From: Nitrosopumilus zosterae
GTDB lineage: Archaea; Thermoproteota; Nitrososphaeria; Nitrososphaerales; Nitrosopumilaceae
Length of the DNA: 64,000 nucleotides
Direction of reading: 5' to 3'
NCBI RefSeq assembly: GCF_025998175.1
Contig: NZ_AP026695.1
Span: 1,680,581 to 1,744,580, forward strand
In this document: piece after piece, positions 28,154-50,638 of the stretch
Layout: each line of letters opens with the position of its first letter
Position numbering within the stretch: position 1 is the stretch's first letter
The notes under the pieces: model-generated
The model's database searches: none
Seen by the model: the letters and a program-made list of their open reading frames with translations, nothing else
Told to the model about the DNA's origin: nothing
Program-made: the position numbers and the translations under genes

Positions 28154-28188
28154 TAAAATCACGGATTTGTTCCATTATTGTGATTTTA
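28154..28188 (-). terminator. Hairpin overlapping the giant gene stop
   Basis: TAAAATCAC (28154-28162) and GTGATTTTA (28180-28188) form a perfect 9-bp inverted repeat with a 17-nt loop that contains the stop codon of the giant gene (28175-28177). It is followed on the minus strand by an AT-rich run. A terminator or mRNA 3'-end stabiliser is plausible. The 98-bp gap to the next gene holds nothing else clear. Confidence 0.4.
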
Positions 28189-31100
28189 CAGTAATGATTT
28201 CAGAGTGATATCTGTATTTTACCTTCACTAAAGGATCATCAGCTGCATGTGCTTGTGGAATAAATCCATCTTCAGTCTCTAGGGCCACAATCCATTTACC
28301 TATAATTGGATCAATTGAAGTAATTGAGAATCGCTCTAGCATGTTATCTGCACCACTGTATCTGACTCTAAGTATTTGATCGCCATATGGAATACTCTCT
28401 AAGCCACCACGATTTTCTCTAGTGTTGTCATTGATAAGACATTCTTCTGTTCCACCAATTATGCATTGTCCTTGTGGATCAGTTACTCTGAATCTCAAAT
28501 CAGAAGCAGAGTTAGATGCATAGATTAATGCAGGATCAGCTAACACTTGACCATCTTTTTCTATTACTTGTAATGATTTCATGTCATATGCTGAGATTGT
28601 AATGGTCTTTGGATGTATGGAAACTTGTGCAGGTACTGTAACGGTAGAACGATCATACAAGTCAACTCTTCCCTGCAAGTCTAAAGTTGAATAACCATCA
28701 GAACTTGGAACATTCCAGTTAAAGATTACTTGGGTTTGTCCTATTCCAAATATTTGTGATTTCTTTGAAACTACTTTTCCATCAACTACCAGTGACACAA
28801 TTCCATATGATGGGGCATCATCATTAAAGATGTATAATTCTGGTTTGATTAGAGATCCTGATGGAATAATATTTGGAACATCCATCTCAACTGAAATATC
28901 AGATACTATGGTTGGTTTTACACCAATGTTATAGTGTTTTGATTCAGATCTATTATCGTTCTCATCAATGATGTGTAACCAATATTGCATTCCAGGTTCA
29001 CTCATTACGAATGATGGAATATCAGCACTAACTAGATAGGTAGAATTTGAAATTGGTAATGCTTCCACATTCATATTAATTCCAACGTACTGATCTTCTG
29101 TTTGTCCCATGGTAATTGATCTGAGCTCTACTCTTTGCAGAGGAACAACACTGTCAATAATTGCAGATACTTTCATGTCCTGATTGTCAATGTAAAGGAA
29201 CTCTGATTCCAAATCAGCACTGTATCTTGTGCCGTTGGCAATTTGGATTGTAGCATCAAAGATTCTTGGAATTCCTTCTACAATTTCTGGCAACTCATCT
29301 GGAATCTCAACAATTACTGTAGTTCCCTCACATGAGAGTAATCTAACTGATGCCTGTACAACATTCTTTGTTGTACCCTTTTCTTCTGTAACCACTATCA
29401 TCAAGAATGTCTCATCTGAGGAAATTGGAACCTCATAGAGATATCTATCAATGCTGGTTAGTTTGTTCAAGTCCTCATATGGCTGAACTTCGGCTAATGT
29501 TGCATATACAATTCCGGACTTTGAGGTGGCAAGTTTGACTGCTGGTGGAGTATCTGCATCACTTGAGACTATGATGCGTGCCATATTTTCATTACATTTG
29601 TCATAGGATACCTCATTGATTGCAAGTGGTGTTGATAGAATTCCTCCAAATCCTACAGATGCGCCAGATACTGAAGCACCTGCACTAGTTCTTCCTCCAC
29701 CTCCGCCAAGTCCTGATGTACCTGCAGAACTTTCTCCTGCAGCAGACGATGTAGATCTCTTGGAAGATATGGATTTCTTGGAATAGTGATCAGACTCTAC
29801 CACTACATCACAGAATCCACTCTTTTCAGATGGTGTATTTGACAAGATTTTATCTATACCAGATGTCCATGTTGTTCCCACTAGAGTATGTGCTTCTACA
29901 TCTGCACATCCATTAGCAAGTGTAATGATATCAGAAGATGTTGGTTTTGGAACAAGTACTGTCATTTGTGGCTTGGATGCAAAGTTATTCTCATCATTAT
30001 AGTTGAATCCAACAGAATCTTCTTCATAACGATACTTTACATCAATTTCTAATTCCAATTCATTTGTAATTCCACTACTAGCTAAAGTTGGTGAGTTGAT
30101 ATGGTCATCATCAGTTTCAATCACTATCCAGTCTTTGTCAAATACCCCAACTGATGATGAAGAATCCTTTGATGTGATGTCAAGTTTTAACAAACCACCA
30201 AAGCTTGGAATGAGTGAAAGTTGGATTGGGAGTATCATCTGTTGACCTGAAGTAATTTTTTTGATTGAAGTAGATATGACTTGATGAGTGGTCGTTTCTG
30301 TAGAAACAAAGACAGGGATGACTGCAGTAGATGATTTGTTTGTTGGAAGTACATATGGTTGCATCTTGAAGGAGTTGATTACGTCAGAACCTTTGATGCC
30401 TTTACTCCAATCTTTTACATATTTGATGTTAGATTGTGATGATGTTGCAGTAGTTTTTCCTGAGGGATTATTTACACCAACTGTAGTAATTTCTGGAAGT
30501 TGATTAGTTTTTGATATAGTAGTTTGAGTCTGACTATTAACAATAACTGCATTGAATCCTTGTAAAATATTCAGTCCAGTTGAGTTTAGCAATGGTGCAG
30601 ATGAACCTTTCTTTGAATCAGCTGTTGATAGATCAGTGTTTTCATCAATTAAAGTAAAGATGGTCAAAGGATTTACGTTAACACAGCAGACAGGCGCAGA
30701 GGTCTGATCAATTGTAACTACATAGCCTGTTGGAATGGTCGTCATAGTGACAGTATAATCGTCAAATGGTACAGATGTAATTCTTATCTCGCCACTTGTT
30801 GCATTTACATCATTGATGCCATTGTCAGTAATATTTAGACTTCCAGTTCCTGTTAATGGATTTGGTGAGATGGTAAATGAAGCACCACCTTTCAATTGAT
30901 CATCGTCTACAACTCTAATATTCAATGAACCTGCAAATGTAAAGTTATCAGAGAAAGAGAGCGTTTCCTCAAGAATTCTTGTGAATAATGATTGTAATGA
31001 TACTACATCAGTAATTGTTAGAGACTCTAAGAGGACAGCAGTTTGAGATCTACTTGTAGATACCACATCAGATGAGGTCAAGGTCTCAGATAGTGTTGCT

Positions 31101-34100
31101 GATTGAGCTGCATTTGTGGTGATCACATCAGATGGTGTGAGTGTTTCTGTGAGTGTTACAGTTTCAGATGTTGCAACAGAGTCAGATGGGGTCAAGGTCT
31201 CAGATAGTGTTACAGTTTCAGATGTTGCAACAGAGTCAGATGGTGTGAGTGTTTCTGTGAGTGTTACAGTTTCAGATGTTGCAACAGAGTCAGATGGTGT
31301 GAGTGTTTCTGTGAGTGTTACAGTTTCAGATGTTGCAACAGAGTCAGATGGTGTGAGTGTTTCTGTGAGTGTTACAGTTTCAGATGTTGCAACAGAGTCA
31401 GATGGTGTGAGTGTTTCTGTGAGTGTTACAGTTTCAGATGTTGCAACAGAGTCAGATGGGGTCAAGGTCTCAGATAGTGTTGCTGATTGAGCTGCATTTG
31501 TGGTGATCACATCAGATGGTGTGAGTGTTTCTGTGAGTGTTACAGTTTCAGATGTTGCAACAGAGTCAGATGGTGTGAGTGTTTCTGTGAGTGTTACAGT
31601 TTCAGATGTTGCAACAGAGTCAGATGGGGTCAAGGTCTCAGATAGTGTTGCTGATTGAGCTGCATTTGTGGTGATCACATCAGATGGTGTGAGTGTTTCT
31701 GTGAGTGTTACAGTTTCAGATGTTGCAACAGAGTCAGATGGTGTGAGTGTTTCTGTGAGTGTTACAGTTTCAGATGTTGCAACAGAGTCAGATGGGGTCA
31801 AGGTCTCAGATAGTGTTACAGTTTCAGATGTTGCAACAGAGTCAGATGGTGTGAGTGTTTCTGTGAGTGTTACAGTTTCAGATGTTGCAACAGAGTCAGA
31901 TGGTGTGAGTGTTTCTGTGAGTGTTACAGTTTCAGATGTTGCAACAGAGTCAGATGGGGTCAAGGTCTCAGATAGTGTTACAGTTTCAGATGTTGCAACA
32001 GAGTCAGATGGGGTCAAGGTCTCAGATAGTGTTACAGTTTCAGATGTTGCAACAGAGTCAGATGGTGTGAGTGTTTCTGTGAGTGTTACAGTTTCAGATG
32101 TTGCAACAGAGTCAGATGGTGTGAGTGTTTCTGTGAGTGTTACAGTTTCAGATGTTGCAACAGAGTCAGATGGTGTGAGTGTTTCTGTGAGTGTTACAGT
32201 TTCAGATGTTGCAACAGAGTCAGATGGTGTGAGTGTTTCTGTGAGTGTTACAGTTTCAGATGTTGCAACAGAGTCAGATGGGGTCAAGGTCTCAGATAGT
32301 GTTACAGTTTCAGATGTTGCAACAGAGTCAGATGGGGTCAAGGTCTCAGATAGTGTTGCTGATTGAGCTGCATTTGTGGTGATCACATCAGATGGTGTGA
32401 GTGTTTCTGTGAGTGTTACAGTTTCAGATGTTGCAACAGAGTCAGATGGTGTGAGTGTTTCTGTGAGTGTTACAGTTTCAGATGTTGCAACAGAGTCAGA
32501 TGGTGTGAGTGTTTCTGTGAGTGTTACAGTTTCAGATGTTGCAACAGAGTCAGATGGTGTGAGTGTTTCTGTGAGTGTTACAGTTTCAGATGTTGCAACA
32601 GAGTCAGATGGTGTGAGTGTTTCTGTGAGTGTTACAGTTTCAGATGTTGCAACAGAGTCAGATGGTGTGAGTGTTTCTGTGAGTGTTACAGTTTCAGATG
32701 TTGCAACAGAGTCAGATGGTGTGAGTGTTTCTGTGAGTGTTACAGTTTCAGATGTTGCAACAGAGTCAGATGGTGTGAGTGTTTCTGTGAGTGTTACAGT
32801 TTCAGATGTTGCAACAGAGTCAGATGGTGTGAGTGTTTCTGTGAGTGTTACAGTTTCAGATGTTGCAACAGAGTCAGATGGTGTGAGTGTTTCTGTGAGT
32901 GTTACAGTTTCAGATGTTGCAACAGAGTCAGATGGTGTGAGTGTTTCTGTGAGTGTTACAGTTTCAGATGTTGCAACAGAGTCAGATGGTGTGAGTGTTT
33001 CTGTGAGTGTTACAGTTTCAGATGTTGCAACAGAGTCAGATGGGGTCAAGGTCTCAGATAGTGTTACAGTTTCAGATGTTGCAACAGAGTCAGATGGGGT
33101 CAAGGTCTCAGATAGTGTTACAGTTTCAGATGTTGCAACAGAGTCAGATGGTGTGAGTGTTTCTGTGAGTGTTACAGTTTCAGATGTTGCAACAGAGTCA
33201 GATGGTGTGAGTGTTTCTGTGAGTGTTACAGTTTCAGATGTTGCAACAGAGTCAGATGGTGTGAGTGTTTCTGTGAGTGTTACAGTTTCAGATGTTGCAA
33301 CAGAGTCAGATGGTGTCAAGGTCTCAGATAGTGTTACAGTTTCAGATGTTGCAACAGAGTCAGATGGGGTCAAGGTCTCAGATAGTGTTACAGTTTCAGA
33401 TGTTGCAACAGAGTCAGATGGGGTCAAGGTCTCAGATAGTGTTACTGATGCTGCAGTGGTTGTGGTGAGTACATCAGATGGAGTCAAGGTCTCAGATAGT
33501 GTTACTGATGCTGCAGTGGTTGTGGTGAGTACATCAGATGGTGTGAGTGTTTCATCCAGGGTTACTGATGCTGCAGTGGTTGTTGTGAGTACATCAGATG
33601 GAGTCAAGGTCTCAGATAGTGTTACTGATGCTGCAGTGGTTGTGGTGAGTACATCAGATGGAGTCAAGGTCTCAGATAGTGTTACTGATGCTGCAGTGGT
33701 TGTGGTGAGTACATCAGATGGAGTCAAGGTCTCAGATAGTGTTACTGATGCTGCAGTGGTTGTGGTGAGTACATCAGATGGTGTGAGTGTTTCATCCAGG
33801 GTTACTGATGCTGCAGTGGTTGTTGTGAGTACATCAGATGGAGTCAAGGTCTCAGATAGTGTTACTGATGCTGCAGTGGTTGTGGTGAGTACATCAGATG
33901 GTGTGAGTGTTTCATCCAGGGTTACTGATGCTGCAGTGGTTGTGGTGAGTACATCAGATGGAGTCAAGGTCTCAGATAGTGTTACTGATGCTGCAGTGGT
34001 TGTGGTGAGTACATCAGATGGTGTGAGTGTTTCATCCAGGGTTACTGATGCTGCAGTGGTTGTTGTGAGTACATCAGATGGAGTCAAGGTCTCAGATAGT

Positions 34101-37100
34101 GTTACTGATGCTGCAGTGGTTGTTGTGAGTACATCAGATGGAGTCAAGGTCTCAGATAGTGTTACTGATGCTGCAGTGGTTGTGGTGAGTACATCAGATG
34201 GAGTCAAGGTCTCAGATAGTGTTACTGATGCTGCAGTGGTTGTTGTGAGTACATCAGATGGAGTCAAGGTCTCAGATAGTGTTACTGATGCTGCAGTGGT
34301 TGTGGTGAGTACATCAGATGGTGTGAGTGTTTCATCCAGGGTTACTGATGCTGCAGTGGTTGTTGTGAGTACATCAGATGGAGTCAAGGTCTCAGATAGT
34401 GTTACTGATGCTGCAGTGGTTGTGGTGAGTACATCAGATGGTGTGAGTGTTTCATCCAGGGTTACTGATGCTGCAGTGGTTGTGGTGAGTACATCAGATG
34501 GAGTCAAGGTCTCAGATAGTGTTACTGATGCTGCAGTGGTTGTGGTGAGTACATCAGATGGTGTGAGTGTTTCATCCAGGGTTACTGATGCTGCAGTGGT
34601 TGTTGTGAGTACATCAGATGGAGTCAAGGTCTCAGATAGTGTTACTGATGCTGCAGTGGTTGTTGTGAGTACATCAGATGGAGTCAAGGTCTCAGATAGT
34701 GTTACTGATGCTGCAGTGGTTGTGGTGAGTACATCAGATGGAGTCAAGGTCTCAGATAGTGTTACTGATGCTGCAGTGGTTGTTGTGAGTACATCAGATG
34801 GAGTCAAGGTCTCAGATAGTGTTACTGATGCTGCAGTGGTTGTGGTGAGTACATCAGATGGAGTCAAGGTCTCAGATAGTGTTACTGATGCTGCAGTGGT
34901 TGTTGTGAGTACATCAGATGGAGTCAAGGTCTCAGATAGTGTTACTGATGCTGCAGTGGTTGTTGTGAGTACATCAGATGGAGTCAAGGTCTCAGATAGT
35001 GTTACTGATGCTGCAGTGGTTGTGGTGAGTACATCAGATGGAGTCAAGGTCTCAGATAGTGTTACTGATGCTGCAGTGGTTGTGGTGAGTACATCAGATG
35101 GAGTCAAGGTCTCAGATAGTGTTACTGATGCTGCAGTGGTTGTGGTGAGTACATCAGATGGTGTGAGTGTTTCATCCAGGGTTACTGATGCTGCAGTGGT
35201 TGTGGTGAGTACATCAGATGGTGTGAGTGTTTCATCCAGGGTTACTGATGCTGCAGTGGTTGTGGTGAGTACATCAGATGGAGTCAAGGTCTCAGATAGT
35301 GTTACTGATGCTGCAGTGGTTGTGGTGAGTACATCAGATGGAGTCAAGGTCTCAGATAGTGTTACTGATGCTGCAGTGGTTGTGGTGAGTACATCAGATG
35401 GAGTCAAGGTCTCAGATAGTGTTACTGATGCTGCAGTGGTTGTGGTGAGTACATCAGATGGAGTCAAGGTCTCAGATAGTGTTACTGATGCTGCAGTGGT
35501 TGTGGTGAGTACATCAGATGGTGTGAGTGTTTCATCCAGGGTTACTGATGCTGCAGTGGTTGTGGTGAGTACATCAGATGGTGTGAGTGTTTCATCCAGG
35601 GTTACTGATGCTGCAGTGGTTGTTGTGAGTACATCAGATGGAGTCAAGGTCTCAGATAGTGTTACTGATGCTGCAGTGGTTGTGGTGAGTACATCAGATG
35701 GAGTCAAGGTCTCAGATAGTGTTACTGATGCTGCAGTGGTTGTTGTGAGTACATCAGATGGAGTCAAGGTCTCAGATAGTGTTACTGATGCTGCAGTGGT
35801 TGTTGTGAGTACATCAGATGGAGTCAAGGTCTCAGATAGTGTTACTGATGCTGCAGTGGTTGTGGTGAGTACATCAGATGGTGTGAGTGTTTCATCCAGG
35901 GTTACTGATGCTGCAGTGGTTGTTGTGAGTACATCAGATGGAGTCAAGGTCTCAGATAGTGTTACTGATGCTGCAGTGGTTGTGGTGAGTACATCAGATG
36001 GAGTCAAGGTCTCAGATAGTGTTACTGATGCTGCAGTGGTTGTTGTGAGTACATCAGATGGAGTCAAGGTCTCAGATAGTGTTACTGATGCTGCAGTGGT
36101 TGTGGTGAGTACATCAGATGGAGTCAAGGTCTCAGATAGTGTTACTGATGCTGCAGTGGTTGTGGTGAGTACATCAGATGGAGTCAAGGTCTCAGATAGT
36201 GTTACTGATGCTGCAGTGGTTGTGGTGAGTACATCAGATGGAGTCAAGGTCTCAGATAGTGTTACTGATGCTGCAGTGGTTGTGGTGAGTACATCAGATG
36301 GAGTCAAGGTCTCAGATAGTGTTACTGATGCTGCAGTGGTTGTTGTGAGTACATCAGATGGAGTCAAGGTCTCAGATAGTGTTACTGATGCTGCAGTGGT
36401 TGTGGTGAGTACATCAGATGGAGTCAAGGTCTCAGATAGTGTTACTGATGCTGCAGTGGTTGTGGTGAGTACATCAGATGGAGTCAAGGTCTCAGATAGT
36501 GTTACTGATGCTGCAGTGGTTGTGGTGAGTACATCAGATGGTGTGAGTGTTTCATCCAGGGTTACTGATGCTGCAGTGGTTGTGGTGAGTACATCAGATG
36601 GAGTCAAGGTCTCAGATAGTGTTACTGATGCTGCAGTGGTTGTGGTGAGTACATCAGATGGTGTGAGTGTTTCATCCAGGGTTACTGATGCTGCAGTGGT
36701 TGTGGTGAGTACATCAGATGGAGTCAAGGTCTCAGATAGTGTTACTGATGCTGCAGTGGTTGTGGTGAGTACATCAGATGGAGTCAAGGTCTCAGATAGT
36801 GTTACTGATGCTGCAGTGGTTGTGGTGAGTACATCAGATGGTGTGAGTGTTTCATCCAGGGTTACTGATGCTGCAGTGGTTGTGGTGAGTACATCAGATG
36901 GTGTGAGTGTTTCATCCAGGGTTACTGATGCTGCAGTGGTTGTGGTGAGTACATCAGATGGAGTCAAGGTCTCAGATAGTGTTACTGATGCTGCAGTGGT
37001 TGTGGTGAGTACATCAGATGGAGTCAAGGTCTCAGATAGTGTTACTGATGCTGCAGTGGTTGTGGTGAGTACATCAGATGGTGTGAGTGTTTCATCCAGG

Positions 37101-40100
37101 GTTACTGATGCTGCAGTGGTTGTTGTGAGTACATCAGATGGAGTCAAGGTCTCAGATAGTGTTACTGATGCTGCAGTGGTTGTGGTGAGTACATCAGATG
37201 GAGTCAAGGTCTCAGATAGTGTTACTGATGCTGCAGTGGTTGTGGTGAGTACATCAGATGGAGTCAAGGTCTCAGATAGTGTTACTGATGCAGTATAGTT
37301 GGTTGTAATGGTATCAGAATGGGTTAATGTTTCAGATAGAGTAACGGATCTGGCGATATTTGTTGCAACTACATCAGATGGGGTGAGTGTCTCAGATAGA
37401 GTAGTTGATGATATTGTCATTGTGGTGATTGTGTCAGATGGAGTGAGTGTCTCAGATAGAGTAGTTGATGATATTGTCATTGTGGTGATTGTGTCAGATG
37501 GAGTGAGTGTCTCAGATAGAGTAGTTGATGCAGTGTAATTAGTTGTAATTGTATCAGAATGGGTTAATGTTTCAGATAGGTCTGCAGTTCTGGCAATATT
37601 TGTTGTAATTGTGTCAGATGGAATTAATGTTTCAGATAGAGTAACAGTTCCAATATTTTGTGTGACAATGAAGTCAGAGATGGATAATGTTTCAGTGAGA
37701 ACAACTTTCTTTGGCAAAAATTCTATTGTTTGGTATCCAACTGTAAATGTTCCAGTTCCATCACCTCTTATTACACGTATAGTATTTGCGTCATCAAGTT
37801 GCAAGGTTGACTGAATTCTATCAATTGAACCGGCAACAGTACTAGAACCACTACCTGTTCCACAACCAAATGGTGAACAAACGGTACCAATAACAAATGC
37901 TCTATCCACATTTGTAATAGAATCTCCTCCCTCTAGATCAAAAGTAGTATTAGACTGAGTATCACTCTGAGTGTGTGTTCCATGTCTAATATTTGCATAA
38001 TCCTCAGGAAGCTCAACTAGAGTCCAGTTAATCTCAATTGCAGGAGCCCCGGTTCCAGAGTTTCTTGCAAATACCAAGTCGTTATTAGAATTGATTGTGG
38101 CATGGATGTATGATTGGTTAGGAATATAGTCAAATGCTGTATCATCTTTCATAAAAGATACAAACAAAAGGCTTCTTGTTCTATCAATTGATGTAGGTGG
38201 AGTAATGGTAGTGGTGGTACTTCCTGATGAAATTGATGTCTGTCCTCTTTGAACATTAACTTCAAGGTTATTCCAGTCAAACAAGCCCATGTAATTATCT
38301 TGAGGACCACTGCCAGGGGCAGTCTTTACTTGCCATTCCCATTGAGTTGAACTAGTAAGTCTGATTCTATCAAGCTCTTCTGAACCAACTTGGGATTCAT
38401 TATTGTCATGAACATGTCCTTGATACCACTCCATTGTTTCACTCAAATCTACTGGAGTGCCACTCAAAGTTGTAGTAACTACAGTACTTCCTGATGCAGC
38501 TTGAGTAAAAGACTGAGTGCTGCCTTCAACAGTAGATGCATTGCCAAATTCAATTACACTACAAACATAGTTCACGGAGTTTGGTCCGGGTGGTTTTGCA
38601 GTTGCGTGAATTGTAAGTGTGGTATCATCAAGTTCCCACGCTCTAAATATTTTGTTGTGTTCACTTTGTCGATTATGATTAAACGAGCACATTGCAAATG
38701 CTTTGCTTGCATCTGCAAGTGGTGAATCAAGAGTAATGGTTGTTGGATCACTAGAACTAGTACCAGAATAAACCGTTACTTTGAGAGGTCTTGCGTTAGG
38801 ATCATCCCCAGGAGATCTTTTGGCTGCATCAACACTGTCAGAGAGAGAAAGTGTCTCTGAAATAGTACTGATAATACTGATGGATAAGGAAACAGAATCA
38901 GAAATTGAAAGAGATTCATCTAAAATAATATTCGTGAGAGGTGTATTCGTTGCAATAGCATCAGATGTATTCAATGTTTCAGAAAGATCAACATCCTGCG
39001 TAATTGCTGCAAAAATATCATCTGAGATGCTTAATGTTTCGGTTAAGGTTCTAGAAGCACTGATTCCAATTACTAAATCATCAGAAATACCAAGTGTTTC
39101 TGAAAGTAATGGCTGTTTTACAATTGGTGAACCATATAATCTGTTTATATTTGTGTCAAAGAAATCTGCATACAATAAATTCTCATTGTAGTTGTTAATA
39201 GATAATCCTCTAAAGTTACTTGTAGAATTCGTTAACAGTTTTTCAGAACTCCAACTAATTGATGGGATTGAAGTTGATTTGTAGTAGACATCGTTTGAAG
39301 TTGCAACAGCACCATAATTGTAAATTGCATATAATTTTCCAGAATCTCCGTTAATTCCTACTGATGTATCTATATACCGTTTGCTTCCATCAGTGCTGGT
39401 TACTTTAGGTAAAGTGGACCAACCAGATCCATCAACATAACGATAAATTCTAACTTCGCTGTCTGTGGCAGCAACATTAGGAACTGCTGTGACATAAATG
39501 TCTCCGGTTTTTTTATCAACCACTCCTGAGACTGCATGATCATAAGCAGTAGAATCAACTATTCCTGTGTCAATTGTGGTCCAACCTGCATCCCAAGTAC
39601 CTGCACTCTGATCGTATTGTTTGGAACGTAAGACATGACCGCTAATGTCTAGTGAAACCAGTAAGATATCGTCATCATTAGGTAATGGCAACAATATTAG
39701 AGAATCATTGCCGTCATCATTACCCCATATTGTATTTCTTGCACCAGCGTTACTCCAATCTGATTGAGATTCACAAGAATGACCAGATTCAGTACATACT
39801 CTAACACGTGATAATGGATCATCAGTTGCAGAACCATCAATTGTACCAATATAGATATCACCATTTGTACCCAGAGCGATTGAAATGTTTCCTGCATCAG
39901 CCAAAGTACCAAAGTTTCCTATGCCGTTACTAATGTCCACCAATGGAGTAGCAATAGTTGCATCTGAAGGATCAAACTTTATGTAAAACATTGTATCATC
40001 ACCGCCGTCATATGCCGCAATGTGGATGAAATTATCAGTCAATTCAGGCGTATCAAGCTCATACCAAGTAGCAATTCCTATAAACAGATTATTCACAGAT

Positions 40101-43100
40101 TCTATTTCACCACCATAATTCCATGAAAATCCGCCATCTGTGGAATAGCTGTAGGCAAGATCCTGTTCTGCATCAATGTAAAATGAGTAGACATGGGAGC
40201 CGTTAACTGCAACAGTTCTTTTGGAGGCATCCTGCCACCTATCATCATTGATAGTTACACTTGCGTCAATTAAGAAGTGAGGATCAACTGCTACAAACCA
40301 GTTTCTAGCTTCAGTGAAAGTTGGAATGCCTGACTGCATAATTTCCATTTTACCCAGGGGATATAGTTCAGGTGTTACAAGTGGTACAGAGTATGAGTAT
40401 GAAAATGTTTCAACATAGCCATCTTGAGGGGTTTTCTTCCATGTCAACACTTTATAATTTCCAACAGTCTCAACAGTGGCATCTGTATTGAAAATCCCAA
40501 ATGATGATGGAACATATTCACGAATTGTAAGCTCATCATTTCCAACAAATGATGTAATGTCAATTTCTACATCAAAGTCATTAGGATCTACAAATGGATC
40601 AATTTTGCTGTCAGTGTATCTAATAATGTCATAATCATAATTATCAAGTACGGTAAAGTATGTTGAAAAGTTTGCAATTCCATTTCCAGTTTCAGCTTGA
40701 ATATTTATTGTGTAGTTTCCTATAATGGATGTAGGATAGTTTGTAAGATATAATCCACAAGAAGCTTCAATGATATCATTTGAAGATATCAATGTTGATG
40801 ACAAGTTTGGATCTATGATTTGCATTATAGTATTTGCAGGACATACAGGAGCTCCTGTTCCATTAAGGACAACAATTTCAAACTCTGCAAGTTCTCCTGG
40901 TTTGTAAATACTTTTCATCGAGTTTACAGATACAAGACCCCATGCAAATTCACTTTCTGAAATGAATTGTTTTCCATCCATATTGAGAATTGTTTTGATT
41001 TTGTAAATTCCCGGTTTTGCTTTTGCAGGATCAAACTTTATATTGAATTTTCCTTCTCTTTGTTTTTCAAACGTTACATCTAGTTCTACTTTGTTGTTGT
41101 TTACATCATATACTTCAGTTGTGATTGTTTCCTTGTCATTCCAGTTATCTTTTTGTTTCTGCTGTTTGTTTGTAATTTTTTCGAGTTTTTCAATTACAGA
41201 GTTTAGTTTGTCAGTTTTCTTTTGTTGTTTTGATTCTTTTACTTCTTCTTTTATTTGATCAACTAAGAGTTTGATTTTATTTTTTATTGTATCTAGTTCG
41301 TTTTCTGATACAGTTTCGCTTTTTTTGATTTGAGTGATTTCTTTTTTGAGTTGTTTTATTTTTGCTTTAATTGAGGTGCCATCATCTTTTGCTGCATCAG
41401 CTTCTGGAATTGGTAGTACAAATAATCCAAAAATTTCATCTAATGGAGATGGATTGAGAGCACTTTCAGTGTCAGTATCAGCAGTTTCTATGGCAACATC
41501 AAGATTCTCAAATTCTTGAACCATAGCCTCAGTTTCAGTGAAGAATTCAAAGACGATTTCAGCCTCCTCATTAATTGTAAATGTATCCTTTACAGGTATC
41601 AAATGAGGAGAAATATCAGGCACCACTATGATTGCAGAGGTGTTATTTCGTGCCTGAGAATAATCAAATGATAGAATGTCTTGAATGGACATTTGTGCCT
41701 GTAAGGAATCTGATGAGATTTGTGCCTGAGGATCTTCAGCAATATTTTGTGCCTGAATATGAGTAGTTGAGAGGATATCAGAAAGGGACATTTGTGCCTG
41801 TAAGATTTGTGTGTAATTTTGTGCCTGCAGTGCGGCCATCTCTTGCTCGATTTCTTTTAGAATATCATCCAATGTTTTTTCTTGGGTTGGACCATGAGCA
41901 GATTTACCTTGGGAATACAATTGTCCAATTTCTGTCTCTAAAAGGGAGTAATCAAACAAAAGAATCTCATCGATCATGCCTGAGAACATGTTGTTTGGAT
42001 GGGAAATGTTGTTTCTTGTAGTGATGTAGGCTCCAACTACAATATCATTTTCCGATGAAATGTTTTCAATATCAACATATTCTAATTTTCCATCTATGGA
42101 TAGGGAAGGTATTCTTGTTAGCTGCTTTGTGCCTTCAATTTCTCCGTTTACATAGATACTGATAGTTTGGTTGCTAAATGACGCCAAAATATGCGTCCAT
42201 TCTTCAGGAATTTCAGATATGGAATCTATTTGGGTCCATTTTATACCATCAAAAACAGAGAATTTTGCGGTATTTCCGGATTTTAGATTGTTTACAGCCA
42301 ATGAAAATGAACCCTCTTTGCTCATAATTGTGAATTCTGGAGAACCGTGGGAGTAGTCAGGTTTTATCCAGGTACTAATGACAAAAGATTGTAGATTATT
42401 TGTAGAATTTTCATTTATCTGCATAAAATCTTGATATCCATTTAGGTCAACAGTATTCTCTTCATTGATTTTTGCTTTATCTGTAGAAAATTTAGGCGTG
42501 AAAATTATTTCCAATAGATCAGAGATGGACATGTTTGATTTAGTTGAGGATGAGTCAGATGTGTCAGGCATGTTGTCTGTAAATGGTGACAGCGTGATGC
42601 TGAGAATGTCAGAGATGGACATGTTTGATTTAGTTGAGGATGAGTCAGATGTGTCAGGCATGTTGTCTGTAAATGGTGACAGCGTGATGCTGAGAATGTC
42701 AGAGATGGACATGTTTGATTTAGTTGAGGATGAGTCAGATGTGTCAGGCATGTTGTCTGTAAATGGTGACAGCGTGATGCTGAGAATGTCAGAGATGGAC
42801 ATGTTTGATTTAGTTGAGGATGAGTCAGATGTGTCAGGCATGTTGTCTGTAAATGGTGACAGCGTGATGCTGAGAATGTCAGAGATGGACAAATCATTAT
42901 TTGATTGAGTTCGGAATGATTCAATAGGAATAACTTCAGATAGATCAATTTCAGGATTATCATTCAATTGAGAAATAATTGTAACATTCTCCTGAGAAAT
43001 AATTTCAGAATCATCTAATTGAGAAATAACTTCAGTACTGTTATCCATTTCTCCAAATGCATAACCCCAATAAGATGAAGAGATTGATAATGGAGTAATT

Positions 43101-43786
43101 ACTGCAGATGAAACAAGAATAATTATAAAAGCAAAAGTAAAAAATTGTTTTATTTGATAAAATTTAGTTTGTTCGTTATCATAACGAATTAGGACAAAAC
43201 CTGCAAAAGGTATCAATAATATTAATAATATTGGATTTTCTGGATCAAAAATTTGATCATTTAAAAATTCAATATTATTTTGAATGTAAAGATCAGAGTT
43301 AGGGTTAAAATAATTTGAAATTGTTTTTTGTGTTTCAATAGTATTTGAAAGTAGATCAGTTAATTCAAAATATAATTTGTCAAATGATAAATAATCTGAA
43401 AATATTAGATCATTATTAACAATATTTTGATCGTGGTAATCTAATGTTGATGGTAAAACCATTTTTAAAAATTTAGATTCATTAATTTGGAATTTTGATT
43501 GTCTGTCAGAAATTCTTTCCATCATTACTTTTCTATCAGATTCATGTTTAACCAAAATAATTTGATCTTTAACTTCTTTGGAACTTGAAGTAGAAAGTTT
43601 TTCATACAATGAAACTGAAAATGAATTTACTTGATCAGTTTTTTCTTTTGTTTCTAAAAATCCAATTTTTTCAATTAAATCAACTGTAAAATTTTCTGGA
43701 ACTGATTTAAAATTTTCTGGAACTGATTGTGAATAAACATAATCAGTTCCAGATGAAAGTGTTGACAGAACCAAAATCAAAAACAT
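28175..43786 (-). CDS. Giant (about 5,200-residue) Thr/Ser-rich surface repeat protein
   Basis: 5,203 residues from the ATG at 43786; 5,210 if the CTG at 43807 is used (see 43812-43821). In order: signal peptide; an N-terminal region with two membrane spans at about 193-210 and 217-240, joined by a basic loop (RYDNEQTKFYQIKQ); four identical 30-residue SISDIL repeats (about 300-420); a LamG-like domain (about 445-575); a coiled coil rich in Lys/Glu (about 800-875); beta-rich domains and a sialidase-like stretch (YSYSTDGGFSWNYGG near 1210); another beta domain (about 1665-2030); the LSETLTPSD arrays (about 2030-4280); and a C-terminal Ig-like/prealbumin-like region with no sorting motif. The likely topology is a membrane hairpin near the N-terminus with the body outside the cell. 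An adhesion, sheath or receptor role is inferred. Confidence 0.88.
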   Translation of the reverse strand: MFLILVLSTLSSGTDYVYSQSVPENFKSVPENFTVDLIEKIGFLETKEKTDQVNSFSVSLYEKLSTSSSKEVKDQIILVKHESDRKVMMERISDRQSKFQINESKFLKMVLPSTLDYHDQNIVNNDLIFSDYLSFDKLYFELTDLLSNTIETQKTISNYFNPNSDLYIQNNIEFLNDQIFDPENPILLILLIPFAGFVLIRYDNEQTKFYQIKQFFTFAFIIILVSSAVITPLSISSSYWGYAFGEMDNSTEVISQLDDSEIISQENVTIISQLNDNPEIDLSEVIPIESFRTQSNNDLSISDILSITLSPFTDNMPDTSDSSSTKSNMSISDILSITLSPFTDNMPDTSDSSSTKSNMSISDILSITLSPFTDNMPDTSDSSSTKSNMSISDILSITLSPFTDNMPDTSDSSSTKSNMSISDLLEIIFTPKFSTDKAKINEENTVDLNGYQDFMQINENSTNNLQSFVISTWIKPDYSHGSPEFTIMSKEGSFSLAVNNLKSGNTAKFSVFDGIKWTQIDSISEIPEEWTHILASFSNQTISIYVNGEIEGTKQLTRIPSLSIDGKLEYVDIENISSENDIVVGAYITTRNNISHPNNMFSGMIDEILLFDYSLLETEIGQLYSQGKSAHGPTQEKTLDDILKEIEQEMAALQAQNYTQILQAQMSLSDILSTTHIQAQNIAEDPQAQISSDSLQAQMSIQDILSFDYSQARNNTSAIIVVPDISPHLIPVKDTFTINEEAEIVFEFFTETEAMVQEFENLDVAIETADTDTESALNPSPLDEIFGLFVLPIPEADAAKDDGTSIKAKIKQLKKEITQIKKSETVSENELDTIKNKIKLLVDQIKEEVKESKQQKKTDKLNSVIEKLEKITNKQQKQKDNWNDKETITTEVYDVNNNKVELDVTFEKQREGKFNIKFDPAKAKPGIYKIKTILNMDGKQFISESEFAWGLVSVNSMKSIYKPGELAEFEIVVLNGTGAPVCPANTIMQIIDPNLSSTLISSNDIIEASCGLYLTNYPTSIIGNYTINIQAETGNGIANFSTYFTVLDNYDYDIIRYTDSKIDPFVDPNDFDVEIDITSFVGNDELTIREYVPSSFGIFNTDATVETVGNYKVLTWKKTPQDGYVETFSYSYSVPLVTPELYPLGKMEIMQSGIPTFTEARNWFVAVDPHFLIDASVTINDDRWQDASKRTVAVNGSHVYSFYIDAEQDLAYSYSTDGGFSWNYGGEIESVNNLFIGIATWYELDTPELTDNFIHIAAYDGGDDTMFYIKFDPSDATIATPLVDISNGIGNFGTLADAGNISIALGTNGDIYIGTIDGSATDDPLSRVRVCTESGHSCESQSDWSNAGARNTIWGNDDGNDSLILLPLPNDDDILLVSLDISGHVLRSKQYDQSAGTWDAGWTTIDTGIVDSTAYDHAVSGVVDKKTGDIYVTAVPNVAATDSEVRIYRYVDGSGWSTLPKVTSTDGSKRYIDTSVGINGDSGKLYAIYNYGAVATSNDVYYKSTSIPSISWSSEKLLTNSTSNFRGLSINNYNENLLYADFFDTNINRLYGSPIVKQPLLSETLGISDDLVIGISASRTLTETLSISDDIFAAITQDVDLSETLNTSDAIATNTPLTNIILDESLSISDSVSLSISIISTISETLSLSDSVDAAKRSPGDDPNARPLKVTVYSGTSSSDPTTITLDSPLADASKAFAMCSFNHNRQSEHNKIFRAWELDDTTLTIHATAKPPGPNSVNYVCSVIEFGNASTVEGSTQSFTQAASGSTVVTTTLSGTPVDLSETMEWYQGHVHDNNESQVGSEELDRIRLTSSTQWEWQVKTAPGSGPQDNYMGLFDWNNLEVNVQRGQTSISSGSTTTTITPPTSIDRTRSLLFVSFMKDDTAFDYIPNQSYIHATINSNNDLVFARNSGTGAPAIEINWTLVELPEDYANIRHGTHTQSDTQSNTTFDLEGGDSITNVDRAFVIGTVCSPFGCGTGSGSSTVAGSIDRIQSTLQLDDANTIRVIRGDGTGTFTVGYQTIEFLPKKVVLTETLSISDFIVTQNIGTVTLSETLIPSDTITTNIARTADLSETLTHSDTITTNYTASTTLSETLTPSDTITTMTISSTTLSETLTPSDTITTMTISSTTLSETLTPSDVVATNIARSVTLSETLTHSDTITTNYTASVTLSETLTPSDVLTTTTAASVTLSETLTPSDVLTTTTAASVTLSETLTPSDVLTTTTAASVTLDETLTPSDVLTTTTAASVTLSETLTPSDVLTTTTAASVTLSETLTPSDVLTTTTAASVTLDETLTPSDVLTTTTAASVTLDETLTPSDVLTTTTAASVTLSETLTPSDVLTTTTAASVTLSETLTPSDVLTTTTAASVTLDETLTPSDVLTTTTAASVTLSETLTPSDVLTTTTAASVTLDETLTPSDVLTTTTAASVTLSETLTPSDVLTTTTAASVTLSETLTPSDVLTTTTAASVTLSETLTPSDVLTTTTAASVTLSETLTPSDVLTTTTAASVTLSETLTPSDVLTTTTAASVTLSETLTPSDVLTTTTAASVTLSETLTPSDVLTTTTAASVTLSETLTPSDVLTTTTAASVTLSETLTPSDVLTTTTAASVTLSETLTPSDVLTTTTAASVTLDETLTPSDVLTTTTAASVTLSETLTPSDVLTTTTAASVTLSETLTPSDVLTTTTAASVTLSETLTPSDVLTTTTAASVTLSETLTPSDVLTTTTAASVTLDETLTPSDVLTTTTAASVTLDETLTPSDVLTTTTAASVTLSETLTPSDVLTTTTAASVTLSETLTPSDVLTTTTAASVTLSETLTPSDVLTTTTAASVTLSETLTPSDVLTTTTAASVTLDETLTPSDVLTTTTAASVTLDETLTPSDVLTTTTAASVTLSETLTPSDVLTTTTAASVTLSETLTPSDVLTTTTAASVTLSETLTPSDVLTTTTAASVTLSETLTPSDVLTTTTAASVTLSETLTPSDVLTTTTAASVTLSETLTPSDVLTTTTAASVTLSETLTPSDVLTTTTAASVTLSETLTPSDVLTTTTAASVTLSETLTPSDVLTTTTAASVTLDETLTPSDVLTTTTAASVTLSETLTPSDVLTTTTAASVTLDETLTPSDVLTTTTAASVTLSETLTPSDVLTTTTAASVTLDETLTPSDVLTTTTAASVTLSETLTPSDVLTTTTAASVTLSETLTPSDVLTTTTAASVTLSETLTPSDVLTTTTAASVTLSETLTPSDVLTTTTAASVTLDETLTPSDVLTTTTAASVTLSETLTPSDVLTTTTAASVTLDETLTPSDVLTTTTAASVTLSETLTPSDVLTTTTAASVTLDETLTPSDVLTTTTAASVTLSETLTPSDVLTTTTAASVTLSETLTPSDVLTTTTAASVTLSETLTPSDVLTTTTAASVTLDETLTPSDVLTTTTAASVTLSETLTPSDVLTTTTAASVTLSETLTPSDSVATSETVTLSETLTPSDSVATSETVTLSETLTPSDSVATSETVTLTETLTPSDSVATSETVTLTETLTPSDSVATSETVTLTETLTPSDSVATSETVTLSETLTPSDSVATSETVTLSETLTPSDSVATSETVTLTETLTPSDSVATSETVTLTETLTPSDSVATSETVTLTETLTPSDSVATSETVTLTETLTPSDSVATSETVTLTETLTPSDSVATSETVTLTETLTPSDSVATSETVTLTETLTPSDSVATSETVTLTETLTPSDSVATSETVTLTETLTPSDSVATSETVTLTETLTPSDSVATSETVTLTETLTPSDSVATSETVTLTETLTPSDVITTNAAQSATLSETLTPSDSVATSETVTLSETLTPSDSVATSETVTLTETLTPSDSVATSETVTLTETLTPSDSVATSETVTLTETLTPSDSVATSETVTLTETLTPSDSVATSETVTLSETLTPSDSVATSETVTLSETLTPSDSVATSETVTLTETLTPSDSVATSETVTLTETLTPSDSVATSETVTLSETLTPSDSVATSETVTLTETLTPSDSVATSETVTLTETLTPSDVITTNAAQSATLSETLTPSDSVATSETVTLTETLTPSDSVATSETVTLTETLTPSDVITTNAAQSATLSETLTPSDSVATSETVTLTETLTPSDSVATSETVTLTETLTPSDSVATSETVTLTETLTPSDSVATSETVTLTETLTPSDSVATSETVTLSETLTPSDSVATSETVTLTETLTPSDVITTNAAQSATLSETLTSSDVVSTSRSQTAVLLESLTITDVVSLQSLFTRILEETLSFSDNFTFAGSLNIRVVDDDQLKGGASFTISPNPLTGTGSLNITDNGINDVNATSGEIRITSVPFDDYTVTMTTIPTGYVVTIDQTSAPVCCVNVNPLTIFTLIDENTDLSTADSKKGSSAPLLNSTGLNILQGFNAVIVNSQTQTTISKTNQLPEITTVGVNNPSGKTTATSSQSNIKYVKDWSKGIKGSDVINSFKMQPYVLPTNKSSTAVIPVFVSTETTTHQVISTSIKKITSGQQMILPIQLSLIPSFGGLLKLDITSKDSSSSVGVFDKDWIVIETDDDHINSPTLASSGITNELELEIDVKYRYEEDSVGFNYNDENNFASKPQMTVLVPKPTSSDIITLANGCADVEAHTLVGTTWTSGIDKILSNTPSEKSGFCDVVVESDHYSKKSISSKRSTSSAAGESSAGTSGLGGGGGRTSAGASVSGASVGFGGILSTPLAINEVSYDKCNENMARIIVSSDADTPPAVKLATSKSGIVYATLAEVQPYEDLNKLTSIDRYLYEVPISSDETFLMIVVTEEKGTTKNVVQASVRLLSCEGTTVIVEIPDELPEIVEGIPRIFDATIQIANGTRYSADLESEFLYIDNQDMKVSAIIDSVVPLQRVELRSITMGQTEDQYVGINMNVEALPISNSTYLVSADIPSFVMSEPGMQYWLHIIDENDNRSESKHYNIGVKPTIVSDISVEMDVPNIIPSGSLIKPELYIFNDDAPSYGIVSLVVDGKVVSKKSQIFGIGQTQVIFNWNVPSSDGYSTLDLQGRVDLYDRSTVTVPAQVSIHPKTITISAYDMKSLQVIEKDGQVLADPALIYASNSASDLRFRVTDPQGQCIIGGTEECLINDNTRENRGGLESIPYGDQILRVRYSGADNMLERFSITSIDPIIGKWIVALETEDGFIPQAHAADDPLVKVKYRYHSEIITVKSQ
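31090..33440 (-). repeat. 54-bp tandem repeat array (about 40 copies) in the giant gene
   Basis: Each 54-bp unit encodes 18 residues, SVATSETVTLTETLTPSD, with Ser/Thr exchange in ETL. DNA identity between units is very high. Three 60-bp interruptions encode VITTNAAQSATLSETLTPSD, and each carries the same DNA, so blocks were copied as a group. The array joins the 60-bp array at about 33440. Confidence 0.95.
33441..37290 (-). repeat. 60-bp tandem repeat array (about 64 copies) in the giant gene
   Basis: The period is exactly 60 bp. Units encode SVTLSETLTPSDVLTTTTAA or the same with DETL. There are only two DNA alleles for the S/D segment and one common synonymous change (TTGTTG/TTGTGG). A nine-unit 540-bp block at 33781-34320 is repeated without any change at 34321-34860. 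Older, diverged units of the same LSETLxxSD type flank the array (37300-37690 and 38800-39110). Confidence 0.97.
42520..42891 (-). repeat. Four identical 90-bp repeats near the giant gene 5' end
   Basis: Units start at 42520, 42610, 42700 and 42790 and are identical over 90 bp; a partial fifth runs to about 42891. Each encodes 30 residues with SNMSISDILSITLSPF and a Ser/Asp-rich half. The SISD motif is the same short core found in the LSETLSISD repeats further on. Confidence 0.93.
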
Positions 43787-44102: not shown

Positions 44103-44348
44103 ATTGAATTGAAAATAATACAACATGATCTATTGAATTGAAAATAATACAACATGATCTATTGAATTGAAAATAATACAACATGATCTATTGAATTGAA
44201 AATAATACAACATGATCTATTGAATTGAAAATAATACAACATGATCTATTGAATTGAAAATAATACAACATGATCTATTGAATTGAAAATAATACAACAT
44301 GATCTATTGAATTGAAAATAATACAACATGATCTATTGAATTGAAAAT
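44103..44348. repeat. 29-bp tandem repeat array (eight copies plus a partial copy)
   Basis: Eight perfect head-to-tail copies of a 29-bp unit (starting ATTGAATTGAAAATAATAC) occupy 44103-44334; a ninth, partial copy of 14 bp (44335-44348) is the 3' end of the MurI-like gene. No spacers lie between units, so it is not CRISPR. Each unit carries a copy of the gene's last codons and stop, so the array probably grew from the gene end. Confidence 0.95.
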
Positions 44349-45097
44349 TTTGAAATTTTATTGTTAATATTCATATAACTAAGTTTTTTTTCAAGTAATT
44401 TAATACTGCCAGAGGTAAAAATTTGTAGTGAATTTCTTTTTTTGTTAGGATCAGCATAATGTTGTTTTAAATTAATAGCTAATGACTCACTAGGATCAAG
44501 AAAGACAATATTAGGAAATATCTTTTTAAAGAATTTCAAAAGAAATGGCAAGTGTGTGCTAGATAACGTAACTACATCCACGTTGTTTTTAAGAAATGTC
44601 AAACTTAGAATTTTTTTAATCATGTTCTTACATAATTCAGGATTTGAATAAAACTTACCAGATTCTACCAAGTCAACTAGTGCAGATGCATTTATTTTAA
44701 TAATTTTGATGTTATTTATTTTCAAGCTTTTGATATAATTATCAAGTAGTTTACTTTTTACAATTGATTCTGTTGCCAATATTGCGATAGATTTTGATTT
44801 TGAAATTGCTTTTGCTTCATTTATTGGTGGCAATACGGTAAAAATATTATTTGAATGTGAATCTAATGTGAGTGATAGAGTGTTTGAACCAATAACAATT
44901 AACTTAGGCGCAAAAGAATTTTGAATTGATGAAATTGTTTTTAATGTAATGCTTTTTAATTCTTTAATAGGTTTTTTTCCATAAGGAAAGTTTTTTGTGT
45001 CAGCAAAGTAAATTATGTCGCACTTCATTTGTTTTTGAATAGGTTTTATGATGGATAATGAACCTAAACCAGAATCAAATACAGCAATTTTTACCAT
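44333..45097 (-). CDS. Glutamate-racemase-like protein lacking both catalytic cysteines
   Basis: 254 residues, normal MurI length. Family blocks are clear: IAVFDSGLGSLSII (D8, S9), ADTKNFPYGKK (Y39, G40), VIGSNTLSL, ALVDLVESGKF and TLSSTHLPFLLKFF. In true racemases the two catalytic cysteines lie in CNT and GCTH; here they are S71 (GSNT) and S180 (SSTH). D-Glu is not needed in an organism without murein, so a different or non-catalytic role is likely. Asp/hydantoin racemases also use Cys. The last four codons lie in the first unit of the 29-bp array. It is divergent from cdvB. Confidence 0.8.
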   Translation of the reverse strand: MVKIAVFDSGLGSLSIIKPIQKQMKCDIIYFADTKNFPYGKKPIKELKSITLKTISSIQNSFAPKLIVIGSNTLSLTLDSHSNNIFTVLPPINEAKAISKSKSIAILATESIVKSKLLDNYIKSLKINNIKIIKINASALVDLVESGKFYSNPELCKNMIKKILSLTFLKNNVDVVTLSSTHLPFLLKFFKKIFPNIVFLDPSESLAINLKQHYADPNKKRNSLQIFTSGSIKLLEKKLSYMNINNKISKFSIQ

Positions 45098-45207
45098 CTA
45101 TGAACAATATTTTGAATATGATTTAGATTTTGTTAGCTAAATTTAATCTAAAACTGATCTAAATTTACACTGTTGATTAAGACTAAATTTGTAAATCATC
45201 ATTCATA

Positions 45208-45858
45208 ATGCCAAACTTCGATAAAACTTGGGCTCATCAAGAGACCCAAAGCGTAACTGGCAAACTCCGTGAAGCAGTAAAGCCTCAAGGTGCATTAAAA
45301 CCACGAATTCAAACTGCAGTGAATAAACTACAGGTCCAAATATCAAAAATGGATTCTATGTTAGGAAAGCTGCATGAAAGAGATGCGCAACTCTTTCAAC
45401 GTGTGGTAACCGCAATGCAACAACATGATACTAGCACAAGTAGAGTTTTGTCCAACGAATTAGCTGAAATTCGTAAAGTTACAAAGATGCTCGGCAATGC
45501 AAGAATGTCATTAGAACAAGTCCAACTAAGACTGACAACTATTCACGATCTTGGTGATGCAATGGTAGCAATTGGACCAGCGATGTCTACAATGAAGGGA
45601 TTGAAGTCATCACTAGGAAGATTCATGCCAGAAGCTGATTCAGAATTGAATAGTATGACACAGACACTTAATGGACTCATGATGGATTCACTTGCAGGAG
45701 ACTCGTTTAGCATGGAGTCTGCCGCTTCAAATGAAGAAACCGAAAAGATTCTACAGGAAGCATCTGCAGTAGCTGAGCAACAGATTGGTGATAGATTTCC
45801 ATCTGTACCAACTTCCACCGGACTTTCGTCTCAAAGCTCTACAACAACGTTTGAGTAG
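45208..45858 (+). CDS. cdvB: CdvB / ESCRT-III-like cell-division protein
   Basis: 216 residues, mostly helical and with a basic first helix (KLREAVKPQGALKPRIQTAV), as in Snf7/ESCRT-III. QISKMDSMLGKLHERDAQLFQRVV and VLSNELAEIRKVTKML are the usual thaumarchaeal CdvB core blocks. The C-terminal tail is Ser/Thr-rich; a winged-helix CdvA-binding motif typical of some crenarchaeal forms is not seen. It forms division filaments at midcell. It stands in its own transcript; a T-rich stretch after the stop (45870-45893) may terminate it. Confidence 0.9.
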   Translation: MPNFDKTWAHQETQSVTGKLREAVKPQGALKPRIQTAVNKLQVQISKMDSMLGKLHERDAQLFQRVVTAMQQHDTSTSRVLSNELAEIRKVTKMLGNARMSLEQVQLRLTTIHDLGDAMVAIGPAMSTMKGLKSSLGRFMPEADSELNSMTQTLNGLMMDSLAGDSFSMESAASNEETEKILQEASAVAEQQIGDRFPSVPTSTGLSSQSSTTTFE

Positions 45859-49879: not shown

Positions 49880-50638
49880 TTATTTTTTCTTTCTATAGCC
49901 ATGGCTAAAGTTTTTGTCATACAGTTTTGAATATTCGTATGATTCAGGATCAATTACATCACTAATAATCACAATTGCGGTTCGAGTAATTTTTTCATCT
50001 TTGACTTTTTTTGCAATATCTTCCAGAGTTCCCTTGACAATCTTTTGATCTTCCCAGCTTGCTCTGTACACTACTGCAACGGGTGTAGTTTTTTTGTATC
50101 CGCCTTCAATTGCTTCTTTAACTAATTTAGAAAGTAGATGGACACTAAGATAAAAGATCAACGTAGCTTTGTGTTTTGCAAGTTCAGAGATGCTTTCGCG
50201 TTTGGGTACTTTGGTTCGAGATTCTGCCCTGGTAACTATGATTGTCTGAGTTACACCGGGAAGTGTCAATTGAGTTCCAAGTGCTGCAGCTGAGGCTAAA
50301 AATGCAGTTACGCCTGGAACAACTACAGAGTTTATTCCGTTTTTCTCAAGATTGTCAATCTGTTCCTTTATCGCACCATAAATTGAAGGATCACCATCAT
50401 GCAATCTGACAACAAGTTTGCCTTTTTTTGCATTCTTGTACAGCAAGTCAAAAATTTCCTCTCTCACCAGTTTTGCAGCATCAAAAAGATTTCCCTTTTT
50501 GCAAAGATTCAAGATAGGTTCAGGAATTAAAGAGCCAGAATAAACTACGACGTCTGCTTTTTGAATCAGTTTTTTTGCCTTTATTGTGATTAGTTCAGGA
50601 TCACCGGGACCACAGCCTACAAAGAATACATCAGACAC
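49880..50638 (-). CDS. cbiF: Cobalt-precorrin-4 C11-methyltransferase
   Basis: 252 residues. The uroporphyrin-III methyltransferase-like fold shows FVGCGPGDPELITIKA, DVVVYSGSLI (typical for CbiF/CobM), VRLHDGDPSIYGAIKEQ, VPGVTAFLASAA and ATLIFYLS. It adds the methyl group at C11 from SAM. The start is GTG at 50638; it overlaps the end of cbiL by 8 nt, so cbiT-cbiL-cbiF are adjacent on the minus strand and probably one operon. A T-rich region past the stop, shared with the convergent gene at 49853, may terminate both. Confidence 0.93.
   Translation of the reverse strand: MSDVFFVGCGPGDPELITIKAKKLIQKADVVVYSGSLIPEPILNLCKKGNLFDAAKLVREEIFDLLYKNAKKGKLVVRLHDGDPSIYGAIKEQIDNLEKNGINSVVVPGVTAFLASAAALGTQLTLPGVTQTIIVTRAESRTKVPKRESISELAKHKATLIFYLSVHLLSKLVKEAIEGGYKKTTPVAVVYRASWEDQKIVKGTLEDIAKKVKDEKITRTAIVIISDVIDPESYEYSKLYDKNFSHGYRKKK

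Follow-up and report, generated by a model that had tools for sequence, protein, structure and literature searches.

Here we describe a protein of the glutamate-racemase family in ammonia-oxidising archaea (AOA) in which serine stands at both sites where racemases carry their catalytic cysteines. Judged from alignments, it belongs to a Ser/Ser branch of the racemase superfamily that is old and conserved, and is not a product of simple decay. We consider it slightly better than an even bet (a probability of about 0.52) that this branch has given up two-base racemisation and is now another kind of enzyme, independent of cofactors, whose substrate is small and probably dicarboxylate-like.

Materials and methods

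The DNA analysed (the window) is a 64,000-nucleotide stretch of the Nitrosopumilus zosterae genome (contig NZ_AP026695.1), and unprefixed positions are those of the window. The alignment comprised 140 archaeal loci of the order to which the window genome belongs, drawn from a subset of the matching genomes (55 in one set and 176 in another, the two sets overlapping); 60 of these loci were hand-chosen to favour divergent ones. Counts given over 131 rows exclude archaeal rows shorter than 225 aa (fragments and broken copies) and locus L031. Two pairs of loci, L009/L057 and L133/L134, each come from a single genome. The maximum-likelihood tree was computed from 61 rows, with both trait columns removed and with 40 hand-picked AOA rows. 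An AlphaFold model was built from the window protein and six homologues (7 rows; pLDDT 85.6); the model from the single sequence was unusable (pLDDT 34.5).

Homology and predicted fold

The gene occupies one intact open reading frame on the minus strand, the plus strand being full of stops over the same interval, and is the single MurI-like match in the 1,775,052-bp genome of the window. The gene and the active-site positions discussed below are as follows.

44333..45097, minus strand: MurI-like gene, 254 aa, Ser/Ser variant (open reading frame, homology and fold)
45074..45076, minus strand: Asp8, kept catalytic helper (RacE Asp10; alignment)
45059..45061, minus strand: Ser13, signature residue of the family (all 19 Cys-type rows have Gly; alignment)
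44999..45001, minus strand: Asp33, kept helper (RacE Asp36; alignment)
44885..44887, minus strand: Ser71, codon TCA, first catalytic Cys site (RacE Cys74; alignment, invariant in 131/131)
44663..44665, minus strand: Glu145, kept helper (RacE Glu153; alignment, 130/131 AOA rows)
44558..44560, minus strand: Ser180, codon AGC, second catalytic Cys site (RacE Cys185; alignment, invariant in 131/131)
44549..44554, minus strand: His182 (kept, RacE His187) and Leu183 (Tyr/Phe in Cys-type racemases; alignment)

The protein matches the glutamate racemase of PDB entry 1b73 (E 8.2e-18) and the NCBIfam model TIGR00067 (E 2.6e-34), the latter at 118.8 bits, below the curated cut-off of 146.65; unlike the window protein, six homologues of family f8 pass that cut-off. 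Against PF01177 (Asp/Glu/hydantoin racemase superfamily; cut-off 31) the window protein gave no match, and its homologues at L078 and L050 scored 30.1 and 40.9, respectively. A Foldseek search with the 7-row model returned glutamate racemases in all of its top 47 rows, and structural alignment gave Z 29.7 against 3hfr_B (rmsd 2.1 over 246 residues) and Z 28.4 against 1zuw_A, the D-Glu-bound Bacillus subtilis enzyme. The window protein is thus predicted to have the MurI fold over its full length. An earlier note, made from the letters of the window, had called the gene a glutamate-racemase homologue with intact fold motifs and both catalytic cysteines changed to serine. Alignment, the 1b73 and TIGR00067 matches and the fold bear this out, and the motifs that it named (DSG, PYG, NT and THLP) can all be read in the protein, as FDSGLG (DSG at 8-10), PYG (38-40), GSNT (70-73) and SSTHLP (179-184).

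Serine at both catalytic sites

Both sites carry serine in 131/131 full-length AOA homologues. Among all archaeal rows, position 71 is serine in 139/140 with one gap (139/139 rows with a letter) and position 180 in 134/140 with six gaps (134/134 rows with a letter), so that at least one catalytic cysteine, as kept in the one-cysteine racemases, is found in no archaeal row with a letter. Pairwise identities sampled among the 131 full-length proteins range from 26% to 96%, and only 16/254 positions are invariant in these rows, including Ser71, Ser180, Asp8, Asp33, Tyr39 and His182. The Ser71 codon is always TCN in the archaeal rows; the Ser180 codon is AGY in 133/134 rows and TCG in one (L042). 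A compensating cysteine elsewhere in the protein was considered and ruled out: 34/131 of the proteins have no cysteine at all, and therefore no displaced thiol can stand in. The dN/dS ratio is 0.20 between the window gene and its nearest relative, with a median of 0.28 over 1070 pairs; by this measure the MurI-like gene is under purifying selection.

Close relatives with cysteine at both sites, which the earlier note had named as the finding that would overturn it, were looked for and not found, and its view of a repurposed protein instead of random decay agrees with the uniform Ser/Ser state and with dN/dS values of about 0.2-0.3. Among the loci examined, no archaeal relative bore the cysteines except at L143, where a non-AOA Thermoproteota genome (G462) has a glutamate racemase of the usual Cys/Cys type, which may have been transferred or be a contaminant.

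The remaining active site

Outside the two substituted positions the catalytic apparatus closely resembles that of the bacterial enzymes. RacE Asp10, Asp36, Glu153 and His187, which we take to be the catalytic helper residues, have counterparts that are unchanged in 61/61 rows, Ser and Cys types together; Asp8, Asp33 and His182 are in addition invariant across the 131 full-length AOA rows. The Pro-Tyr-Gly motif is retained along with them. Exactly four columns of the 61 rows split the two types: position 13 (Ser, with Gly in Cys types), 71, 180 and 183 (Leu, with Tyr/Phe in Cys types). Among Ser/Ser rows, serine is present at 13, 71 and 180 in 42/42 and leucine at 183 in 40/42. Other positions near the substrate drift, with Asn72 replaced by Ile or Met in 11/40 AOA rows, and Ser9 and Thr73 by Ala in both bacterial Ser/Ser rows. 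Compared with bacterial MurI/RacE (TIGR00067; PDB 1zuw, 3hfr, 2gzm), the window protein therefore shares the whole-length fold (Z 28-30), the DSG, PYG and THxP motifs and the four helpers, but differs in both cysteines (to Ser), in Gly15 (to Ser), in Tyr/Phe188 (to Leu) and in a model score below the cut-off.

Phylogeny and bacterial relatives

A branch with 100/100 support separates the Ser/Ser rows (40 AOA and 2 bacterial) from 19 Cys/Cys rows. This phylogeny, which the earlier note had proposed as a check, finds the Ser/Ser state conserved and confined to one side of the branch. On the rows sampled, the Ser/Ser proteins form a single group in the tree, whose support covers the split from the Cys/Cys rows but not the branching order within the group, nor thereby the direction of any transfer between bacteria and archaea.

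Matching records in a plasmid collection numbered 18, and the two most similar, from Phyllobacterium zundukense and Fusobacterium vincentii, are both Ser/Ser (genes at L173 3989-4771 and L181 7980-8762, in Phyllobacterium and Fusobacterium). The P. zundukense protein (WP_262291953.1) is annotated as 'Asp/Glu racemase' and the F. vincentii homologue (NZ_CP084075) is unannotated. Both share with the window protein the Ser pair, Ser13, the THLP motif and the side of the tree; they differ in being bacterial and in having DAG where it has DSG and SNAPS where it has SNTPS. F. vincentii has a separate ordinary MurI (219 bits) that is Cys/Cys by sequence. The Phyllobacterium Ser/Ser gene is convergent with a gene resembling PLP-dependent threonine/serine dehydratases. 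Further Ser/Ser members were found neither in 299 genomes of the phylum of a Clostridia genome, where the two matches at E <= 1e-30 were both of the Cys type, nor in viral contigs. A search of genome contigs with the single window protein returned one distant Clostridia MurI.

Distribution and gene loss

Across 300 genomes of the order, the MurI-like protein was matched in 176 and AmoA in 190, and among the matches listed both fall entirely within the same four families (f1, f2, f3 and f8). Some AmoA-bearing genomes of 99% completeness (for example G182, G214 and G231) gave no match to the MurI-like protein. Frameshifted or stop-bearing copies are present in Nitrosopumilus-type genomes (L047, L052 and L053), and at L035 a frameshift lies near the end of the gene. 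The gene can therefore be lost, and its loss or breakage in some AOA means that its role would be conditional and not essential. One genome (G260) has two MurI-like copies (L133 and L134), both flanked on the same side by a cdvB paralogue, the second copy (L134) being frameshifted.

Proposed function

Loss of a catalytic cysteine has natural precedents in this superfamily. According to the accessible portions of two papers, the one-cysteine members EcL-DER (Thr83/Cys197) and MMP0739 (Thr at the opposite site) (PMC8142540, PMC12838360), as well as RacX (Ala79/Cys193) and PH1733 (Ala82) (PMC12838360), have lost one of the two; the protein described here belongs to the same superfamily and differs in that both have become serine. 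In the same sources, RacX still racemises with Ala at its first site and PH1733 shows no activity towards Asp and Glu (PMC12838360), replacement of Cys by Thr converts one epimerase to a dehydratase, and ordinary glutamate racemase eliminates N-hydroxyglutamate to 2-oxoglutarate (PMC8142540).

From these precedents, as excerpted (PMC12838360, PMC8142540), we infer that the Ser pair and the acid-base residues would carry out a step other than racemisation on a small carboxylate. A hydroxyl pair, with Ser180 beside His182/Glu145 and Ser71 beside Asp8, would replace the thiol/thiolate pair, and the bound substrate would undergo addition, elimination, hydrolysis or a proton step on one side only; an unactivated alpha-carbon would not be inverted. 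Such a protein is not a likely supplier of D-glutamate in AOA.

The strongest competitor, doubtful in our estimation yet deserving weight, is a ligand-binding pseudoenzyme that would hold glutamate or a similar dicarboxylate in the old pocket without turning it over, and would report nitrogen status or regulate a partner. The loss of the thiols, the partial drift of the pocket residues and dispensability in some lineages all agree with it, and the drift at Asn72, Ser9 and Thr73, which would suit a binding-only protein too, counts against changed chemistry, as do the broken or missing copies in some AOA and the gene neighbourhoods, none of which names a pathway. That RacX is active despite an Ala at its first site, as described in the available text, likewise means that loss at the first site alone is not decisive. 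However, Asp8, Asp33 and His182 never vary and Glu145 is present in 130/131, and a pure binder has no obvious need of the acid-base set combined with an exact Ser pair across domains. Taken together, the evidence favours an enzyme of changed chemistry over decay, a pure binding protein and a racemase.

A bolder form of the changed-chemistry reading, possible though tentative, is that the proteins make up a separate and old enzyme family, which the four AOA families share with a few bacteria and whose racemase active site exchanged two thiols for two hydroxyls to serve a new reaction. In its boldest form, drawn by analogy, the enzyme could clear N-hydroxy amino acids such as N-hydroxyglutamate in AOA. 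These compounds could form where hydroxylamine from ammonia oxidation meets 2-oxoglutarate metabolism; the idea rests on the N-hydroxyglutamate elimination by glutamate racemase and on the restriction of the gene, within the order, to the four AmoA-holding families. Of the two, the general form has the better odds; the bacterial members lend no support to the hydroxylamine form.

The published assignment as glutamate racemase

The protein at L078, in a genome (G148) that we take to be that of N. maritimus SCM1 and that gives one match to TIGR00067, has serine at both catalytic sites. The 'GLUR' of Wang et al. 2025 (PMC12363236), described in the accessible portions of that paper as a glutamate racemase found throughout AOA and almost nowhere else, is almost certainly the same protein. 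The functional assignment there drew on a structure predicted for N. maritimus, in which the necessary catalytic residues were said to be present, and use of D-glutamate by AOA was inferred (PMC12363236). The AOA-wide distribution agrees with ours; the catalytic sites that the available text gives as present are in contrast Ser/Ser here, so that on the sequences this claim is unsupported. The accessible main-text parts of PMC12363236 do not mention the substitution, and we found no report of a Ser/Ser or pseudoenzyme glutamate racemase in the open-licence literature. Presence in AOA was already known; as far as that literature shows, what is new is the conservation of the Ser/Ser state, its occurrence in bacterial relatives and the disagreement with the published function.

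It is unlikely that the protein remains an amino-acid racemase in which the serine hydroxyls act as the two bases and through which, as published, AOA could draw on D-glutamate from the environment. An intact fold with its helpers, the distribution reported in the accessible text of PMC12363236 and the activity of one-Cys RacX are all compatible with this. However, the active one-Cys racemases described in the available text keep one cysteine, the change of which to Ser abolished activity in EcL-DER (Cys197) and markedly reduced it in RacX (PMC12838360); in the present family both sites are Ser and 34/131 proteins are free of cysteine.

Gene neighbourhood

Upstream, the MurI-like gene is divergent from a cdvB paralogue.

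45098..45207, no strand: region common to both divergent genes, 110 bp between start codons (from the ORF starts)
45208..45858, plus strand: neighbouring cdvB paralogue (ESCRT-III-like), 216 aa (best NCBIfam match CdvB1/B2, below cut-off)

The divergent arrangement with a common upstream region, pointed out in the earlier note, is therefore present. The further description of the neighbour as the cell-division filament gene is not supported, its best scores being to CdvB1/B2; in N. maritimus, according to the accessible text of PMC3684127, just one of the three CdvB paralogues formed polymers in yeast. Tetrapyrrole methylases (corrin pathway, cbi-type), which we read as CbiT/L/F from position and Pfam matches, and a glycosyltransferase are kept in the same block as the pair; the methylase at 49880-50638 in the window passes the precorrin-4 C11-methyltransferase cut-off.

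That the protein assists cell division together with the divergent CdvB paralogue is improbable. It would account for the head-to-head pairing, seen in 92/93 resolvable f1 loci (with gaps of 55-307 bp among f1 relatives), 4/4 in f2 and 2/2 in f3. However, the wider block is conserved too, which leaves nothing special about the pairing with cdvB; in f8, 0/34 resolvable loci have the head-to-head pair, three having cdvB 506-1656 bp away. Moreover, cdvB is still open beside the broken MurI-like copies of L047, L052 and L053, and the family has bacterial members, in whose genomes, to our knowledge, cdvB is not expected. The link to cell division that the earlier note had suggested is thus weak: the adjacency holds in f1, f2 and f3, and is countered by the synteny of the wider block and by the absence of the adjacency from f8.

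No neighbour that would name a pathway was found in the gene neighbourhoods examined. A hydantoinase/oxoprolinase-like gene lies directly downstream on the same strand in 14/37 f8 loci, for which flank lengths differ, among them L044 (5838-7970), L045 (2796-4907) and L046 (5868-7982); a homologue stands elsewhere in the window genome (G000:C1:1580832-1582934). As a general partner it was rejected, there being no match in G148 and G060. Just downstream of the MurI-like gene in the window, a single 5203-aa open reading frame (28175-43786, minus strand) contains many near-identical repeats of the types SETLTPSDVLTTTTAASVTL and SETLTPSDSVATSETVTL, and by appearance encodes a giant repeat surface-type protein.

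Other roles

The MurD model was matched in 0/16 AOA genomes (control 12/14), which sets these hosts apart from the bacterial MurI/RacE setting and makes a role in murein cell walls unlikely; the earlier remark that this type of organism has no murein fits, no murein pathway being seen. Inhibition of DNA gyrase, the second role of bacterial MurI in Escherichia coli, B. subtilis and mycobacteria according to the accessible part of PMC10886550, is highly improbable in AOA, as PF00521 (gyrase/topoisomerase IV A subunit) was found in 0/16 AOA genomes (control 12/14). A local mutation, sequencing error or decaying gene, to which the broken copies in a few relatives might point, is refuted for the window gene by its intact reading frame, the 131/131 Ser/Ser relatives and purifying selection.

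Significance

Ammonia oxidisers carrying this widespread gene are among the most abundant archaea of sea and soil, and the gene has so far been read as a D-glutamate racemase. In trench sediment, Nitrososphaeria account for 32.2-72.4% of glutamate-racemase genes by the accessible text of PMC12363236, so that ideas on D-glutamate turnover there rest partly on a protein without the two catalytic thiols. If the Ser/Ser branch has a reaction of its own, it would offer an accessible case of a racemase adopting new chemistry while almost all of its active site is preserved, and would point to a conserved function of AOA.
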